This document shows, in pieces, positions 28,988 through 48,042 of a stretch of 64,000 bases of DNA (positions are counted from its first letter, which is position 1; each line of letters opens with the position of its first letter). The notes under the pieces were generated by a model. That model searched no databases. It was given only the letters and a program-made list of their open reading frames with translations, and was not told the DNA's origin. Source of the stretch: an uncultured Micrococcaceae bacterium (GTDB lineage Bacteria; Actinomycetota; Actinomycetes; Actinomycetales; Micrococcaceae); NCBI GenBank assembly GCA_947502645.1, contig CANNAD010000002.1, forward strand, positions 620,001 through 684,000, given 5' to 3'. The position numbers and the translations under genes were made by a program.

Positions 28988-30412
28988 ATGACCAACTCCC
29001 CCCTCACCCCCGCTGAAGCGACCGAAGCCGGGAAGGCATCACCGCAACCGGGCAGCAACAACACCATGAAATCGCGGCAGCTCATCATGATGGGACTCGG
29101 CAGCGCCATTGGCGCCGGGCTGTTCCTGGGAGCAGGCGTCGGCGTGCAGGCCGCAGGACCCGCCGTGCTGATCTCGTACCTCATCGCAGGTACGCTCATC
29201 ATCATCGTCATGCAGGCATTGGGGGAAATGGCCGCTGCCAACCCCAACAGCGGCGCGTTCTCCGTCTATTGCGCCAAAGCTATGGGCACAACAGCGGGCG
29301 CAACCGTCGGCTGGCTCTGGTGGGTGCAGCTGGTCATCGTCATCGCAGCGGAAGCTGTGGGAGCAGCTGGCCTGTTGGCAGGGATCTGGCCTGTCTTGCC
29401 AGCCGGAGTCATGGCGTTGATCTTCATGGTTCTCTTCACCGCGGTCAACCTGTTCGGAGTGAAAAACTTTGGTGAATTCGAGTTCTGGTTCGCCATTCTG
29501 AAAGTTGCGGCCATTGTTATATTCCTCGGTATCGGCGGAGCGCTGATTTTTGGGCTACTCCCGGAAGTCCCCTCCCCCGGCTTCTCCAATATCTTCGGCG
29601 GCGACGGTTTTGCCCCGGCAGGACTCGGCGGTATCGCAGCCGGACTACTCGTGGTGATATTTGCTTTCGGCGGCACCGAGATTGTCAGTGTCGCCGCAGC
29701 TGAAACCGAAAACCCCTCACGCAGCGTTCGCAGCGCCATCCGCACAGTAGTCTGGCGCATTCTTGTCTTCTACATCGGCTCCGTTTTGGTCATTGTCATG
29801 GTGGTCCCCTGGACTTCGGATGCGCTCAGCTCCCCGTTCGCGGCAGTCTTATCCATTGCTTCCATCCCCGGCGCAGACACAGCTATCACCCTCGTGGCCG
29901 TCGTCGCACTGCTCTCCGCGCTGAACGCGAATCTCTATGGCGCGTCGCGGATGATCTTCTCACTGTCAGAACGCAGGGAAGCTCCTCGCTTCCTGAGCCT
30001 ACGAAATCGGCTGGCCGTTCCCGTATCCGCCGTCATCGCCTCGGTCATCTTCGGATTCGTGGCCACCGGGCTTGAGCTCCTGTTCCCGGAAAAAGTGCTA
30101 CCCGTTCTCCTTAATATCGTTGGTTCCACCTGTCTGGTGGTGTGGGGGTCGGCGCTGATCGCGCAGATCATCCTTCGACGGCGTGCCGACCGCGACGGCA
30201 CAGAGCTACCCATGCGGATGGCCGCGTTCCCTGCACTGTCCTACCTCGGTGTTGCCCTCCTGACCGGGATTCTGGTCATCGGATTCCTCGCCGAGACCAC
30301 CCGGATCCAGCTGCTCTCCACCTTCGCGCTCGTAGGCGTCATTGCGGCCCTGAGCTGGATCGGCGCACGACGACGCGCCAGCGCCGATATATCCGTCGAC
30401 GCCAGACCCTAA
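28988..30412 (+). CDS. APC-family amino acid permease
   Basis: The protein is 474 aa. Twelve hydrophobic segments run from about residue 32 to 460. The first contains the family signature MGLGSAIGAGLFLGAG (substrate-binding unwound helix) and there is FAFGGTEIVSVAAAETENP near 225. It belongs to the GABA/proline/aromatic type amino acid transporters; the substrate is not determinable. ATG 28988 is chosen because earlier in-frame codons precede the promoter region. It is divergent from the Lrp regulator. Its stop overlaps the convergent LamG gene by 4 bp. Confidence 0.92.
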   Translation: MTNSPLTPAEATEAGKASPQPGSNNTMKSRQLIMMGLGSAIGAGLFLGAGVGVQAAGPAVLISYLIAGTLIIIVMQALGEMAAANPNSGAFSVYCAKAMGTTAGATVGWLWWVQLVIVIAAEAVGAAGLLAGIWPVLPAGVMALIFMVLFTAVNLFGVKNFGEFEFWFAILKVAAIVIFLGIGGALIFGLLPEVPSPGFSNIFGGDGFAPAGLGGIAAGLLVVIFAFGGTEIVSVAAAETENPSRSVRSAIRTVVWRILVFYIGSVLVIVMVVPWTSDALSSPFAAVLSIASIPGADTAITLVAVVALLSALNANLYGASRMIFSLSERREAPRFLSLRNRLAVPVSAVIASVIFGFVATGLELLFPEKVLPVLLNIVGSTCLVVWGSALIAQIILRRRADRDGTELPMRMAAFPALSYLGVALLTGILVIGFLAETTRIQLLSTFALVGVIAALSWIGARRRASADISVDARP

Positions 30413-42935: not shown

Positions 42936-44006
42936 ATGAATTCTTCATTGCCCACTCCTCCTGATGTGCTGCGGTGTGCCTACGCCGAGTTGATCGTCAC
43001 CGATCTCGTCAAATCGCGTGAGTTCTACGTCGATGTTCTCGGGCTGGTTGTGACCCACGAGGACGACGACGCCATTTACCTCCGTGCGTTCGAGGAGTAC
43101 CTGCATCACTCGCTGGTCCTGCGCAAGGGCGCTGAGGCTGCCATGTCGGTCATGGCCTACCGTGTTCGCTCTGCTGCCGAGCTCGACGTTGCTGAGACGT
43201 ACTACCGCGCTCTGGGGGTTCGGGTGGAACGCGTTCCGGCCGGCCACACCCGCGGTATTGGTGAGGCTGTACGGATCGAGGATCCGCTGGGCTTCCCGGT
43301 CGAGTTCTTCTACGAAGCCGAGCATGTGGAGCGCTTTACCCGTCGGTATGACGTCCACGGCGCTGGCGCCATTTCACGGCTGGATCACTTCAACGTGGTC
43401 ACCCCTGACGTGGGTGCTGCCCGCGAATACTACGAGGGGCTCGGATTCAAGGTCTCCGAGGACATCCGCGGGGGCGAGGACGACGACAACACCGTCTACG
43501 CAGCCTGGATGTACCGGAAGCCCACCGTCCACGACGTTGCCCTCACCGGCGGCGACGGGCCGCGAATGCACCACATTGCGTTCGCCACGCACGAGCGGAC
43601 GCAGATCCTGCATCTGTGTGACCACCTGGGCGCTCTCCGCCAGTCCGATCAGATCGAGCGCGGTCCCGGCCGTCACGGTGTGTCCAACGCGTTTTACCTC
43701 TACCTGCTGGATCCGGACGGCCACAGGATCGAGATCTACACGCACGATTACTACACCGGTGATCCGGACAACCCCACGCTGACCTGGGATGTGCACGACA
43801 ACCAGCGTCGCGACTGGTGGGGCAGCCCCGTGGTCCCGAGCTGGTATTCGGAGGCATCGAAGGTTCTGGATCTGGACGGCAACGTCCGTGATCTCACACT
43901 TCGCCAGGAGTCTCGTGAAGCCGATGTCACCATCGGTGCTGACGGGTTCTCCTACACCCGCGAGCCCGGTGAGGAAAAGGGCTTCAAGGTAGGCACCCAG
44001 GTCTAG
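42936..44006 (+). CDS. hpaD: 3,4-dihydroxyphenylacetate (homoprotocatechuate) 2,3-dioxygenase
   Basis: This extradiol dioxygenase of 356 aa has two VOC domains. Metal ligands are in LDHFN (His), MHHIAF (His) and RIEIYT (Glu), with the second-sphere His in TVHDVALTGG. The sequence closely follows MndD of Arthrobacter globiformis (Mn) and HPCD of Brevibacterium fuscum (Fe), including CDHLGALR and DPDNPTLTWDVHDNQRRDWW. The metal cannot be told by eye. AAAGGAAA lies 7 nt before ATG. It is the last gene of the operon, followed by the hairpin units. Confidence 0.96.
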   Translation: MNSSLPTPPDVLRCAYAELIVTDLVKSREFYVDVLGLVVTHEDDDAIYLRAFEEYLHHSLVLRKGAEAAMSVMAYRVRSAAELDVAETYYRALGVRVERVPAGHTRGIGEAVRIEDPLGFPVEFFYEAEHVERFTRRYDVHGAGAISRLDHFNVVTPDVGAAREYYEGLGFKVSEDIRGGEDDDNTVYAAWMYRKPTVHDVALTGGDGPRMHHIAFATHERTQILHLCDHLGALRQSDQIERGPGRHGVSNAFYLYLLDPDGHRIEIYTHDYYTGDPDNPTLTWDVHDNQRRDWWGSPVVPSWYSEASKVLDLDGNVRDLTLRQESREADVTIGADGFSYTREPGEEKGFKVGTQV

Positions 44007-44017
44007 AACGTAGACAC

Positions 44018-44206
44018 GAAAAAGCCGAAACACCGGAGGCTGGGGAAACTCTGGTGTTTCGGCTTTTCGTTTGCTACGGACCGGAGTCCGTAGCGGCTGT
44101 GGTGAGCTTGTCTCGGTAAGCCCTACAGCAAGTACATTACGGCTGTTATTCGGGATGGCGCCATGGGTAGCTCTACCCATGACGATGGTTTGCACTCGAT
44201 TCATAA
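44018..44206 (+). ncRNA. Structured-RNA-like unit 1 (four hairpins)
   Basis: P1: 15 bp (44020-44034 with 44053-44067) plus GGAG/CTCT, loop GCTGGGGAAA. P2: GCTACGGAC-CGGA-GTCCGTAGC (44073-44094). P3: GCTGT...GCTT-GTCTCGGT-AAGC...ACAGC (44096-44129). P4: CATGGGTAG-CT-CTACCCATG (44162-44181). The same series occurs in unit 2 with compensatory changes. P1 with its T-run can act as the hpaD terminator. Transcription and strand are unproven; no known family is recognised. Confidence 0.55.
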
Positions 44207-44250
44207 CGTGTGTTATAAGTCGCTATTACCCGAACACGCACGGCTTAAAC

Positions 44251-44451
44251 GAGATAGCCGGAACATCAGAGGCTGGGGAAACTCTGGTGTTCCGGCTATC
44301 TATCGTCCCTGACCAAGTCAGGGATAGTGGTTGGGGCTTGTCGGTAGCCCCTTCCTCACTAACAACTATATGGAACCGTACCGCTGCGCGCGATGGGGAG
44401 AACTACCCATGTGGCGGAATTGCCTCCCCGATGGAACAGGGGTACGGTTCC
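44251..44451 (+). ncRNA. Structured-RNA-like unit 2 (paralogue of unit 1)
   Basis: P1: 44253-44271 with 44282-44300, 19 pairs including one G-U, loop GCTGGGGAAA identical to unit 1. P2: TCCCTGAC-CAA-GTCAGGGA (44306-44324). P3: AGTG...GGGGCT-TGTCGGT-AGCCCC...CACT (44326-44360). P4: ATGGG-GAGAACTA-CCCAT (44393-44410), enclosed by GGAACCGTACC/GGTACGGTTCC (44372-44382 with 44441-44451). It ends 12 bp from the stop of the convergent transporter, so the outer stem may also terminate that gene. Confidence 0.55.
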
Positions 44452-44462
44452 CGTCCGCTGAA

Positions 44463-45836
44463 TTAGCGGCCTGACACATCCGCATCGGCGTCCGCATCCC
44501 TGTTCACGATGGAACCCATACCAAGGTCCGCTCCGCGGGTCTCTTTGGCAAGAATAACGCCCACGCCGGAGATCACGCAGAGAACCATGATGTAGACGCC
44601 AACCGAACCGGACCATCCGGTTGTCACCAGCAGCCACTGGGCGATCGTTGCTGCGAAGGCACCGCCCAGGATCGCGCCGAGCGCGTAGCCGATGGAGATA
44701 CCGGAGTAGCGAATGTTCGCGGGGAACATCTCCGCATACATGGCGGACATCGGTCCGTAGGAGAATCCAAGGCCGATGGTCAGGACAAACAAGCCAACGC
44801 CGTAAAGGACAATGTTGCCGGTGTCGACCAGCATGAACATGGGGATCATCCAGACAAACATGATGGCGTATCCGAGCAGGAAGGTCTTGACACGGCCAAT
44901 GTGGTCCGAGATCCAGCCTCCGATCATGGTGAAGATCAGCCACCCGAAGGATGCCAGCGTGGTTGCCAGCAGGACCTCAGGCAGCGGAAGCTCCAGCGTC
45001 TTCGTGGCGTAGGAGATAAAGAAGGCAATGACGAGATATCCGGCAGCGTTGTTACCGACGAAGATCAGGCAGGAGTAGAGCACTTCGCGCCAGTGGTAAC
45101 GGAAGAGGCTCGCCAGGGGTGCGCTGCTCTCGGCCTTGCGTTCAGAAAGCTCCCGGAAAACCGGGCTCTCCTCGACAGCGCGGCGGATCAGGTAGCCCAC
45201 AAGGATCAGCACGATCGAGAGCAGGAACGGCAGGCGCCATCCCCAGGCCTGGAAATCCTCAGCCGACATGCCAACACGCAGGAAATACAGGAGACCGGTG
45301 GCCAGGATCATGCCGACCGGAACACCAATCTGTGGGTAGGCGCCAAAGAGCCCACGCTTGTTGATGGGAGCATGCTCTACAGCCATCAGCGCAGCGCCGC
45401 CCCATTCACCACCAGCGGAGAAGCCCTGGATCACCCGGAGCAGAACCAGCAAAATCGGAGCCCAGATGCCAATGGAGGCATACGTGGGCAGTACGCCGAT
45501 CAGCGCCGTCGCTGCACCCATCGTGACGAGAGTGAAGACGAGCATCGGCTTGCGGCCGATCCGGTCTCCCAGACGGCCGGCGACGATGGCGCCGAGCGGG
45601 CGGAAGAAGAAGCTGATGCCGATCAGGGCGAACGACAGGATCTGGGCGAGGCCCGGACTCTCCTCATTGAGGGGTGTGAGGAACAGTGGCGCAAGGAGCG
45701 TGGCGGTGAGCTGCGCAAAGATGAAGAAGTCATACCACTCGATGGTGGTACCGACCAGTGTGCCTGCTAGTACCTTGCGCTCTTCCTTACGCTGCCGGGC
45801 TGCCGGCAGAGGGACCGCATGCGACGGTGCTGTCAT
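44463..45836 (-). CDS. MHS-family MFS transporter (probable aromatic acid uptake)
   Basis: The protein is 457 aa with 12 TM segments. GTTIEWYDFFIFAQLTATLL at the first TM and GRLGDRIGRKPML in loop 2-3 are the metabolite:H+ symporter signatures (ShiA/KgtP/PcaK neighbours). VIQGFSAGGEWGGAALMAVE is the TM4 signature. Adjacent to the hpa genes and divergent from an IclR regulator, it probably imports an aromatic acid that feeds the pathway (inference). A 24-bp palindrome lies 26 bp upstream of ATG. Confidence 0.93.
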   Translation of the reverse strand: MTAPSHAVPLPAARQRKEERKVLAGTLVGTTIEWYDFFIFAQLTATLLAPLFLTPLNEESPGLAQILSFALIGISFFFRPLGAIVAGRLGDRIGRKPMLVFTLVTMGAATALIGVLPTYASIGIWAPILLVLLRVIQGFSAGGEWGGAALMAVEHAPINKRGLFGAYPQIGVPVGMILATGLLYFLRVGMSAEDFQAWGWRLPFLLSIVLILVGYLIRRAVEESPVFRELSERKAESSAPLASLFRYHWREVLYSCLIFVGNNAAGYLVIAFFISYATKTLELPLPEVLLATTLASFGWLIFTMIGGWISDHIGRVKTFLLGYAIMFVWMIPMFMLVDTGNIVLYGVGLFVLTIGLGFSYGPMSAMYAEMFPANIRYSGISIGYALGAILGGAFAATIAQWLLVTTGWSGSVGVYIMVLCVISGVGVILAKETRGADLGMGSIVNRDADADADVSGR

Positions 45837-45861
45837 TCGAACTCCAATGAGGGTGAACGGT

Positions 45862-45885
45862 TACTGACCGACAGTTCGGTCAGTA
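45862..45885. promoter_or_regulatory. 24-bp perfect palindrome upstream of the MHS transporter
   Basis: TACTGACCGA-CAGT-TCGGTCAGTA has 10-bp arms and immediately follows a TAAATA box on the minus strand. It is a strong operator. The sequence resembles TetR-family operators, although the adjacent regulator is IclR-type. Confidence 0.7.
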
Positions 45886-46007
45886 TTTATGGATGTGATT
45901 GAGATCATACCTGCGTCTGGGCTGAATCGTCGCGTGGCATCCGTAGCAAAGCGAACTTTTTACGCAACAATTTCGCATACAGCAGCGCAGTCCTGCTGTT
46001 CGATATT

Positions 46008-46022
46008 TGAACAACACGTTCA
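46008..46022. promoter_or_regulatory. Candidate IclR operator
   Basis: TGAAC-AACAC-GTTCA lies 56 bp before the IclR start, flanked by AT-rich sequence suited to a promoter. IclR proteins commonly bind 14-15 bp imperfect palindromes in their own promoter. Confidence 0.45.
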
Positions 46023-46077
46023 TATAAAGAGTATTGTGACCAGCAGGAACCGTCCGACGTTTTGTTGAGGAGAGCCA

Positions 46078-46797
46078 GTGACCCCGCAAACCGCAGCAAA
46101 AGACAAGCCGCTGCACAGCCAGACCCTCTCCCGGGGCCTTCGCGCCCTCGAAATCCTCGCCGAGGCCGACAGTCCCATGAGCATTGCCGGACTCTCGGAA
46201 GCGCTGGGGGTCCACCGGTCCATCGCCTATCGCATCCTTCGAACCCTGGAGGACCATTCGTTGGTGGTCAGGGACGACGCCGGACGCGTCCAGGCCGGCG
46301 TCGGGCTGGCTGCGCTAGCGCGTGGGGTCTCCCGCGATCTCCAGAGCGCAGCGCTTCCCGAGCTCACCACATTGGCCGAATCAGTGGGCACAACAGCATT
46401 CATCGCCGTGTGGGATCAGCATGGCTGCGTCACCCTGCTGACCGTGGAACCCCGTCACCCGGCCGCGACCCTCGTCCAACGTCCTGGCACACGGCACCCG
46501 TTCAGTTCAGGAGCACCAGGAATCGCGATACAGTCAGGACTCACCGACGAAGAGTGGCAACGTCTTGCGCCCGGCGAACCGTACCGGCAAGAAGCCGTGG
46601 AAGCCCGCGATCGTGGATACGCCCTGAGCCACGACGAAGTAATCCCGGGCGTTTCATCCATCGCCGCCCCGATCAGGATTCCAGGCCAACTACCGGCGTC
46701 GATCGCCGTCGTCTACCTGAACCAGCGCGACGACGTCACAGAGCTCGGGACCGCCCTGATCAGGGCCGCGGCAGCAATTGAAGCGCAGCTACGTTAG
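46078..46797 (+). CDS. IclR-family transcriptional regulator
   Basis: The protein is 239 aa. It has an N-terminal winged HTH (about 15-75; IAGLSEALGVHRSIAYRILR) and a C-terminal GAF-like effector domain (about 90-235) with FSSGAPGIAIQSGL and the EVIPGVSSIAAPI signature. The start is GTG after GAGGAG. It is divergent from the MHS transporter. IclR regulators often control aromatic catabolism (PcaR, PobR), so it likely senses a pathway compound. Its stop directly abuts the stop of the convergent MFS gene. Confidence 0.93.
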   Translation: MTPQTAAKDKPLHSQTLSRGLRALEILAEADSPMSIAGLSEALGVHRSIAYRILRTLEDHSLVVRDDAGRVQAGVGLAALARGVSRDLQSAALPELTTLAESVGTTAFIAVWDQHGCVTLLTVEPRHPAATLVQRPGTRHPFSSGAPGIAIQSGLTDEEWQRLAPGEPYRQEAVEARDRGYALSHDEVIPGVSSIAAPIRIPGQLPASIAVVYLNQRDDVTELGTALIRAAAAIEAQLR

Positions 46798-48042
46798 TCA
46801 GTCCCCGCGCTTACGGAGAACGAGGAACATGATGGCGCTCAGGAGAAACAGAATCACTGCAGCACCAACTGACACCCCAAATCCAGCGGCGTAGCCGGAT
46901 CTCTCCGAGATACTTCCCGATAGCGACGCCCCGAGCGCTGTTCCCGCGACGATGCCGCTGGCCAGCATCGTCATGACAGTGCCCATCAGTTTCCGTGGCG
47001 CGACTACCGAACCGATACTGAAGATGGTCACCATCGTTGGCCCTACTGGAATGCCGAGGATGAACAGCGCGATGAGCATCGGGGCCAACTCGTCTGCGAA
47101 CAACAGCATGGTGGACAGCCCGGCCATGGCTGCCGAAGCGACGATCCACCGCAGCCGGTACGCAATGCTTCTGGGCCAGAAGGCCACGGACAATGCCGCC
47201 ACGGCGGAGCTGAGCCCCATGACCGAATACAGCAAGCCAGCTGTACTCGCCGCACCGAAGCTCCCGCCAAAAGCGAAAAGTGTGGTCTGGGTAGCCCCGA
47301 AAAAGGTCCCCATGGACAGCATGCCCAATACGGGCAGCGCCACCAGGAACCAGTTGGTCTTCTCGGCCAGCTCATCACGCGTCCGCGCGGAAGCTCCCAG
47401 CTTGCGCAGGGCGACAACGCTGTTGACCGTGGGGTGGACCGCAAAGGCCGGAACCATCGTCAGCGTAATCAGTGCGGCGAGCGCCAACGGCAACCATGGG
47501 GTGATCAGACTCGCTAGAAGTCCGACGAACGCGGGACCGAGGACGAACGTCAGTTCATCGGCGGTGCTCTCGTAGGACAGTGCGGTGTCCAGGTCACGCG
47601 CGGAGCCGTTGGGGCGCTCGTTCGTGGCCCCGGATGTCATGGCCATCCACCGCACTCGTGCGAGGGGACCAACCTGCGGGCAGGTCCCTCCCATGAGGAA
47701 CGCGGCGGACAGGAAGACGGCAGCCTCCGGTCCGGTGTAGTCAGGAACCAGATACGTCCCGGCCACCAGGGCGGCGATGGTGAGCGTGTTGATGAGGGCG
47801 GATAGTAGCAGTACCGGGCGTTGCCCGAAGTGATCGGCCAGGTAGCCGAGGACGGGAGCTCCTACGGCCGATCCGATGCCGACGGCTCCGGCTGCGAAGC
47901 CACCTACGGCATAGGATCCGCTGACCGCGGTCAGTAAGGTGCCCGCGCCGATCGTGAGCATTGCGAGCGGTACGCGGGCAATGAATCCGACGGGGATGAA
48001 TGATTTACCGGCAAGCTCCGGTAGGCGGGAAAACAGGTTCAT
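46798..48042 (-). CDS. Major facilitator superfamily transporter
   Basis: The protein is 414 aa with about 12 hydrophobic segments. GYLADHFGQRPVLLLSALINT carries the loop 2-3 MFS signature. A middle cytoplasmic region contains RWMAMTSGATNERPNGSARD. It resembles unassigned drug- or metabolite-export MFS proteins of actinobacteria; the substrate is unknown. It is convergent with iclR and followed on the same strand by nothing for its transcript. Confidence 0.88.
   Translation of the reverse strand: MNLFSRLPELAGKSFIPVGFIARVPLAMLTIGAGTLLTAVSGSYAVGGFAAGAVGIGSAVGAPVLGYLADHFGQRPVLLLSALINTLTIAALVAGTYLVPDYTGPEAAVFLSAAFLMGGTCPQVGPLARVRWMAMTSGATNERPNGSARDLDTALSYESTADELTFVLGPAFVGLLASLITPWLPLALAALITLTMVPAFAVHPTVNSVVALRKLGASARTRDELAEKTNWFLVALPVLGMLSMGTFFGATQTTLFAFGGSFGAASTAGLLYSVMGLSSAVAALSVAFWPRSIAYRLRWIVASAAMAGLSTMLLFADELAPMLIALFILGIPVGPTMVTIFSIGSVVAPRKLMGTVMTMLASGIVAGTALGASLSGSISERSGYAAGFGVSVGAAVILFLLSAIMFLVLRKRGD

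Follow-up and report, generated by a model that had tools for sequence, protein, structure and literature searches.

The closest described systems are two small RNAs (sRNAs) with C-rich loops. The B11 (6C) RNA of M. abscessus is reported to pair its C-rich loops with G-rich ribosome-binding sites and to repress ESX-4 genes (PMC10470900). In Xanthomonas, sX13 is described as acting on mRNAs whose start codon has GGGG motifs nearby, and as affecting the type III system (PMC3771888). The locus considered here lies in the genome of an uncultured Micrococcaceae bacterium, within a window of 64,000 nt (the whole stretch of DNA that was analysed). With a probability of roughly 0.63, it holds two tandem genes of a new family of trans-acting antisense sRNAs with a C-rich loop, whose operator is shared with WXG100/type VII genes. 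This small locus joins two questions, the control of WXG100 genes outside mycobacteria and the roles of C-rich sRNAs there, and supplies a defined sRNA family, an operator that WXG100 genes also carry, together with precise predictions of starts, loops and -10 elements. Literature searches returned no description of the sRNA, of the operator or of WXG100 gene control in Micrococcaceae.

The new RNA and 6C/B11 (RF01066) both come from Actinobacteria and both carry C-rich sequence in a hairpin loop, but 6C has two C-rich loops, whereas the window sRNA has three hairpins and a single one. RF01066 gave no match at E ≤ 0.001 in the carrier genomes G000, G001 and G008 and was absent among the Rfam matches up to E = 10 in positions 43500–45000 of the window. 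Because of these unmatched carriers and the different layout, the window sRNA is not considered a 6C member. RF01066 did match 4 of 29 genomes, no known carrier among them, and the four loci, when examined, lacked the operator described below (best 8–9 of 14 fixed bases). 6C RNA matches were also seen at L105 and L106, in two genomes of the family, one of them above the cut-off. With sX13, as far as the available text of PMC3771888 describes it, the window sRNA shares three stems and the C-rich loop chemistry; sX13 differs in having three C-rich loops, against one here, and in belonging to a different phylum. The sX13/B11-like class is marked by hairpin loops with a C-tract that is unpaired and conserved, and here this is present as CCCCA in 20/20 aligned copies. 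No Rfam family matched at gathering score in positions 30000–60000 of the window or in 10 homologous loci, in line with the earlier remark that no named family with this layout was known.

Two paralogous hairpin units are located at 44016–44410. The sequence-only reading had described them as tandem multi-hairpin units with covarying stems and an identical 10-nt loop, ordered P1-P2-P3-P4 along the plus strand, and they are present as described. Both carry P2, P3 with the core TGTC(TC)GGT, and P4 with ATGGG/CCCAT followed by TTGC. An MFS transporter gene (44463..45836, minus strand) lies upstream of both proposed sRNA genes on the same strand, and a ring-cleavage dioxygenase-like gene (hpaD-like; 42936..44006, plus strand) is convergent with them. 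Each unit is predicted to consist of an operator, a promoter and an RNA of about 110 nt with three hairpins, the last of which has the C-rich loop. All elements of the two genes are placed on the minus strand. In gene 2, the operator (P4 of unit 2; minus-strand sequence ATGGGTAGTTCTCCCCAT) is at 44393..44410 and the -10 element, TATAGT, at 44365..44370, 22 nt past the operator. The RNA of about 110 nt would span 44248..44359, its 5′ end being set from the -10 and its 3′ end from the last hairpin, and the covariance model R2 matched 44248–44355. It includes SL1 (P3; 44333..44351), SL2 (P2; 44306..44324) and the terminator-like SL3 (P1; 44252..44301) with the C-rich loop TTTCCCCAGC at 44272–44281. 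In gene 1, the operator (P4 of unit 1) is at 44163..44180 and the -10, TAATGT, at 44134..44139, 23 nt past it. The predicted RNA of about 113 nt covers 44015..44128, with both ends estimated, and the R2 match is 44015–44127. Its hairpins are SL1 (P3; 44104..44123), SL2 (P2; 44073..44094) and a terminator-like SL3 (P1; 44017..44069), where transcription of the hpaD-like gene from the opposite side could also stop. The loop TTTCCCCAGC at 44039–44048 is identical to that of sRNA 2.

The P1 regions of the two units are 88% identical over 49 nt, the 10-nt loop included. Folding energies lie well below those of 200 dinucleotide shuffles (z of -6.5 and -8.0), none of which folded as well in either unit. 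When the two window units were aligned with the two of genome G001 (rows aligned by hand with N padding), 97.0% of the cells in P1–P3 were paired and 12 of 34 pairs had changed on both sides, against at most 49.2% and 2 pairs in controls with slid partners. In a larger alignment, A7, of 20 homologues (18 distinct), 92.7% of cells were paired and 23 of 34 pairs had changed on both sides, while slid controls reached at most 51.9% and 12 pairs and 0/500 shuffles scored as high in all five measures; A7 leans toward the structure, because it was fitted to a covariance model. RNAalifold applied to this model-fitted alignment predicted SL1, SL2 and SL3, with 29 pairs. The earlier proposal that the structure is under selection beyond the needs of a mere terminator is supported. 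In the 20 aligned sequences the conserved C-tract is confined to the SL3 loop, where CCCCA is invariant while the stem arms vary. No closed open reading frame above 15 aa occurs inside either sRNA, the longest being of 15 aa. SL3 is followed by a poor U-tract, the more so in sRNA 2, and was not found as a terminator by a consensus scan, whose loop limit of 8 excludes a 10-nt loop.

Covariation of hairpins is blind to strand and fits both. The strand is indicated by the operator and the -10. A TANNNT hexamer follows the operator toward P3-P2-P1 in 20/20 copies, at 22 nt (15 copies) or 23 nt (5 copies), and occurs in the other direction in 1/20 copies (15–30 nt searched; background 0.27% per position). 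This placement puts a predicted RNA with the order P3-P2-P1 on the minus strand, opposite to the strand assumed in the sequence-only reading. Such an operator with its -10 in 20/20 copies, a terminal hairpin and the lack of an open reading frame above 15 aa are the signals expected of an independent small-RNA gene. No sigma-70 promoter was found in a consensus scan of the region, and no consensus -35 was seen. If transcription starts about 7 nt past the -10, the operator would be centred at about -43.5, where class II activators typically bind. Model scores are uninformative on strand, since each model favours the strand on which it was built; an argument from the higher minus-strand score of R2 was dropped, because R1, built on the plus strand, favours plus.

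Homologues beyond the locus, which the earlier note had proposed to look for with a covariance model, were found in 18 of 395 genomes of the family. The plus-strand model R1, built from four units, gave 18/395 genomes at E ≤ 0.01; outside the bacterium's own genus its loci comprised seven real homologues with P4 (one with one base off) and nine ordinary terminators or chance matches. The minus-strand model R2 was built from 11 sequences, aligned by hand with N padding and with the operator columns left out. It gave 47/395 genomes at E ≤ 0.01 and separated 20 copies in 18/395 genomes at E ≤ 4.2e-10 from the next match, an antisense one at 6.6e-7. The operator, with 13–14 of 14 fixed bases, was located 34–39 nt upstream in 18/18 strong R2 loci (one per genome) and in none of the 12 weaker R2 loci examined (best 7–9 of 14). 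Nine of the 18 carrier genomes contributed nothing to the R2 alignment; among those nine, four have nearly the same RNA. The carriers belong to three genera of Micrococcaceae (2, 8 and 8 genomes), one of them Arthrobacter. G001 is the sole other genome of the own genus found, with 80% identity over query positions 15–416, and a tandem pair of copies was observed in this genus alone. In an order-wide search with model R3, 2/396 genomes matched, both from the own family, in a sample that held few known carriers. A search with the pattern of one SL1 type returned five records, all Arthrobacter (Micrococcaceae), which are probably the same species as five R2 loci, because the scores are equal.

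The sequence-only reading had counted P4 as part of the RNA. It is an 18-bp palindrome, ATGGGNAGNNCTNCCCAT, and is read as a DNA operator and not as an RNA stem, because it recurs elsewhere in the genome without P1–P3. The own genome has five exact copies, two being those of the sRNA locus (reversed control 0), and exact copies were found in 31/99 genomes including the own one (reversed control 1/99). Own-genome sites away from the sRNA locus are C1:59194, C1:306375, C1:1147214, C3:142566 and C3:480509, of which C1:306375 and C3:480509 have one mismatch each and are less certain. The palindrome occurs in several families of the order, and several genomes, for example G010 and G031, have the operator yet no sRNA match. 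In the own genome and in relatives it precedes WXG100 genes, DUF6507 genes and genes that appear by eye to be lipoprotein-like. A Pfam scan of 10 chosen downstream proteins (four of them partial) identified five WXG100 (E ≤ 0.01; two above the curated cut-off and three below) and three DUF6507 proteins, and returned nothing for two. A listing for 12 genomes gave 47 operators, of which 7 have a PF06013 match no more than 500 nt away, where about 0.04 would be expected by a rough estimate; conversely, at least 7 of the 33 PF06013 matches in these genomes are within 500 nt of a listed operator. PF06013 is present in 57/59 genomes, so presence of the family alone cannot explain the operator. The sRNA genes are best read as lying behind the DNA signal that also precedes the WXG100 genes of type VII secretion in soil actinobacteria.

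WXG100/ESX genes of Micrococcales share with the sRNA genes the palindromic operator and, in part, the spacing to the -10, but the predicted product in the window is an RNA. TANNNT stands 22–23 nt past the operator before several WXG100-like genes as well. At 39 operator loci examined, TANNNT was present at 20–24 nt on at least one side in 22 (one being the sRNA locus of G008) and on neither side in 17; because of the latter, the 22–23-nt spacing is no general rule beyond the sRNA genes. Genes near C3:142566 (L155) were judged by eye to encode an FtsK/EccC-type ATPase, WXG100, FHA-like and phosphatase-like proteins, the WXG100 gene being the one covered by the family search, and no obvious DNA-binding regulator was seen by eye near this secretion locus. 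At the same site (L040, 1500–1550), the half-site-like repeats CTCCCCATGCA and GTTCTCCCCATGCA lie beside the operator, between EccC-like ATPase and WXG100 genes. The strongest WXG100 gene in three carriers (L199 9942–10232, L200 9428–9763 and L201 9899–10189) is located near groEL, apart from secretion genes, and the operator was not found in these stretches of about 19.9 kb.

Of the options left by the sequence-only reading, a trans-acting RNA fits best. In the proposed mechanism, a regulator, probably an activator, would bind the palindrome, one end of which adjoins the -35 position. RNA polymerase would start at a point set by the -10 located 22–23 nt past the palindrome. The transcript of about 105–120 nt is predicted to fold into SL1, SL2 and the long terminator-like SL3, and the unpaired CCCCA of the SL3 loop may serve as an antisense seed for G-rich ribosome-binding regions in mRNAs transcribed from other loci. 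Antisense chemistry as in B11 and sX13 is the best guess, because the C-tract is invariant, and pairing would most likely lower translation. From the operator common to WXG100 and DUF6507 genes it is proposed that the sRNA and the type VII secretion substrates are produced at the same time, and the sRNA may tune the secretion programme or offset its cost. More tentative, at rather less than even odds, is the fuller picture that one activator turns on both WXG100 effectors and an sRNA limiting mRNAs of the secretion apparatus or competing mRNAs, the link between a C-rich sRNA and ESX, as seen in mycobacteria for B11 and ESX-4, having evolved independently in Micrococcaceae. Such shared-operator wiring, if true, would be unlike anything mentioned for B11 in the available part of PMC10470900.

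Duplex ranking of 90 predicted gene starts in the own genome, with one candidate followed into 8 genomes, yielded no conserved target. Ranked by how well they pair with the loop, the four starts of genes under the operator take places 3, 11, 21 and 37 among the 90. A LysR-type gene (L157), the strongest candidate in the own genome, was considered as a target, since its leader holds CTGGGGAAA and is complementary to the loop in two stretches, but was dropped because the site is not conserved: a site like CTGGGGAAA is absent from the LysR leader in the genus partner G001 and in seven other carriers (8 genomes). Some LysR leaders pair with the loop at other positions, down to -21.1 kcal/mol (G373). 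In the own genome CTGGGGAAA has 14 matches, two of which are the sRNA loops themselves, and none of the remainder is convincing.

The failure to find a conserved target and the strong structure of all stems would suit an sRNA that works by binding a protein, either RNA polymerase in the manner of 6S/Ms1 or an RNA-binding protein, with no antisense pairing. This is nevertheless considered unlikely: no Rfam family whatever matches at gathering score, and the best-conserved of the unpaired segments is a C-tract like those of antisense loops. A somewhat smaller chance is given to the hairpins being 3′-end structures of the MFS and the convergent hpaD-like genes, without an RNA of their own. P1 sits between convergent genes and can terminate both ways, and ordinary terminators did match the models weakly; termination would, however, require neither three stems that covary separately, nor a loop that never varies, nor an operator with a -10 at fixed spacing in 20/20 copies, and in G008 a distance of 1083 nt separates the end of the MFS match from the start of the operator.

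An RNA read from the plus strand as P1-P2-P3-P4 is very improbable. It would agree with the hairpins and their covariation, which suit either strand, with the greater number of T past P1 of unit 1 on the plus strand than past sRNA 2 on the minus strand, and with a TTGC after P4 that, in the two own-genus genomes, precedes a TA-containing hexamer by 17–18 nt (by eye) and points away from the minus-strand RNA. Yet P4 stands before other genes without P1–P3, and TANNNT is found toward P1–P3 in every copy and away from them in one. A plus-strand promoter of this kind (TTGC-17-TATA after P4), with unit 2 as the product of unit 1, was accordingly dropped, given the fixed spacing of the minus-strand -10. 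The least probable reading is a mobile or repeated palindromic element, an option of the sequence-only reading suggested by the two tandem copies and the many palindromes. It fails on the absence of a second hairpin locus in the own genome, on 0 matches in a plasmid collection and 0 in a phage collection, and on the conserved MFS neighbour.

A close homologue (61–93% identity) of the window's MFS gene is found upstream of the sRNA on the same strand at 16 of 17 genome loci (L084 being the exception), and upstream in 5/5 of the Arthrobacter records too. The gene order MFS - IclR - MFS - sRNA is common to window positions 44463–48042 and L107 221–3743 (Arthrobacter sp. Soil782). MFS homologues were matched in 56/99 genomes, and among the 28 MFS loci listed outside the own genus (30 listed in all) the operator and sRNA occurred only in the known carrier G008. 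In G008 the stretch that separates the MFS gene from the sRNA contains a perfect 31-bp tandem repeat of 3.2 copies (L048 1792–1889).
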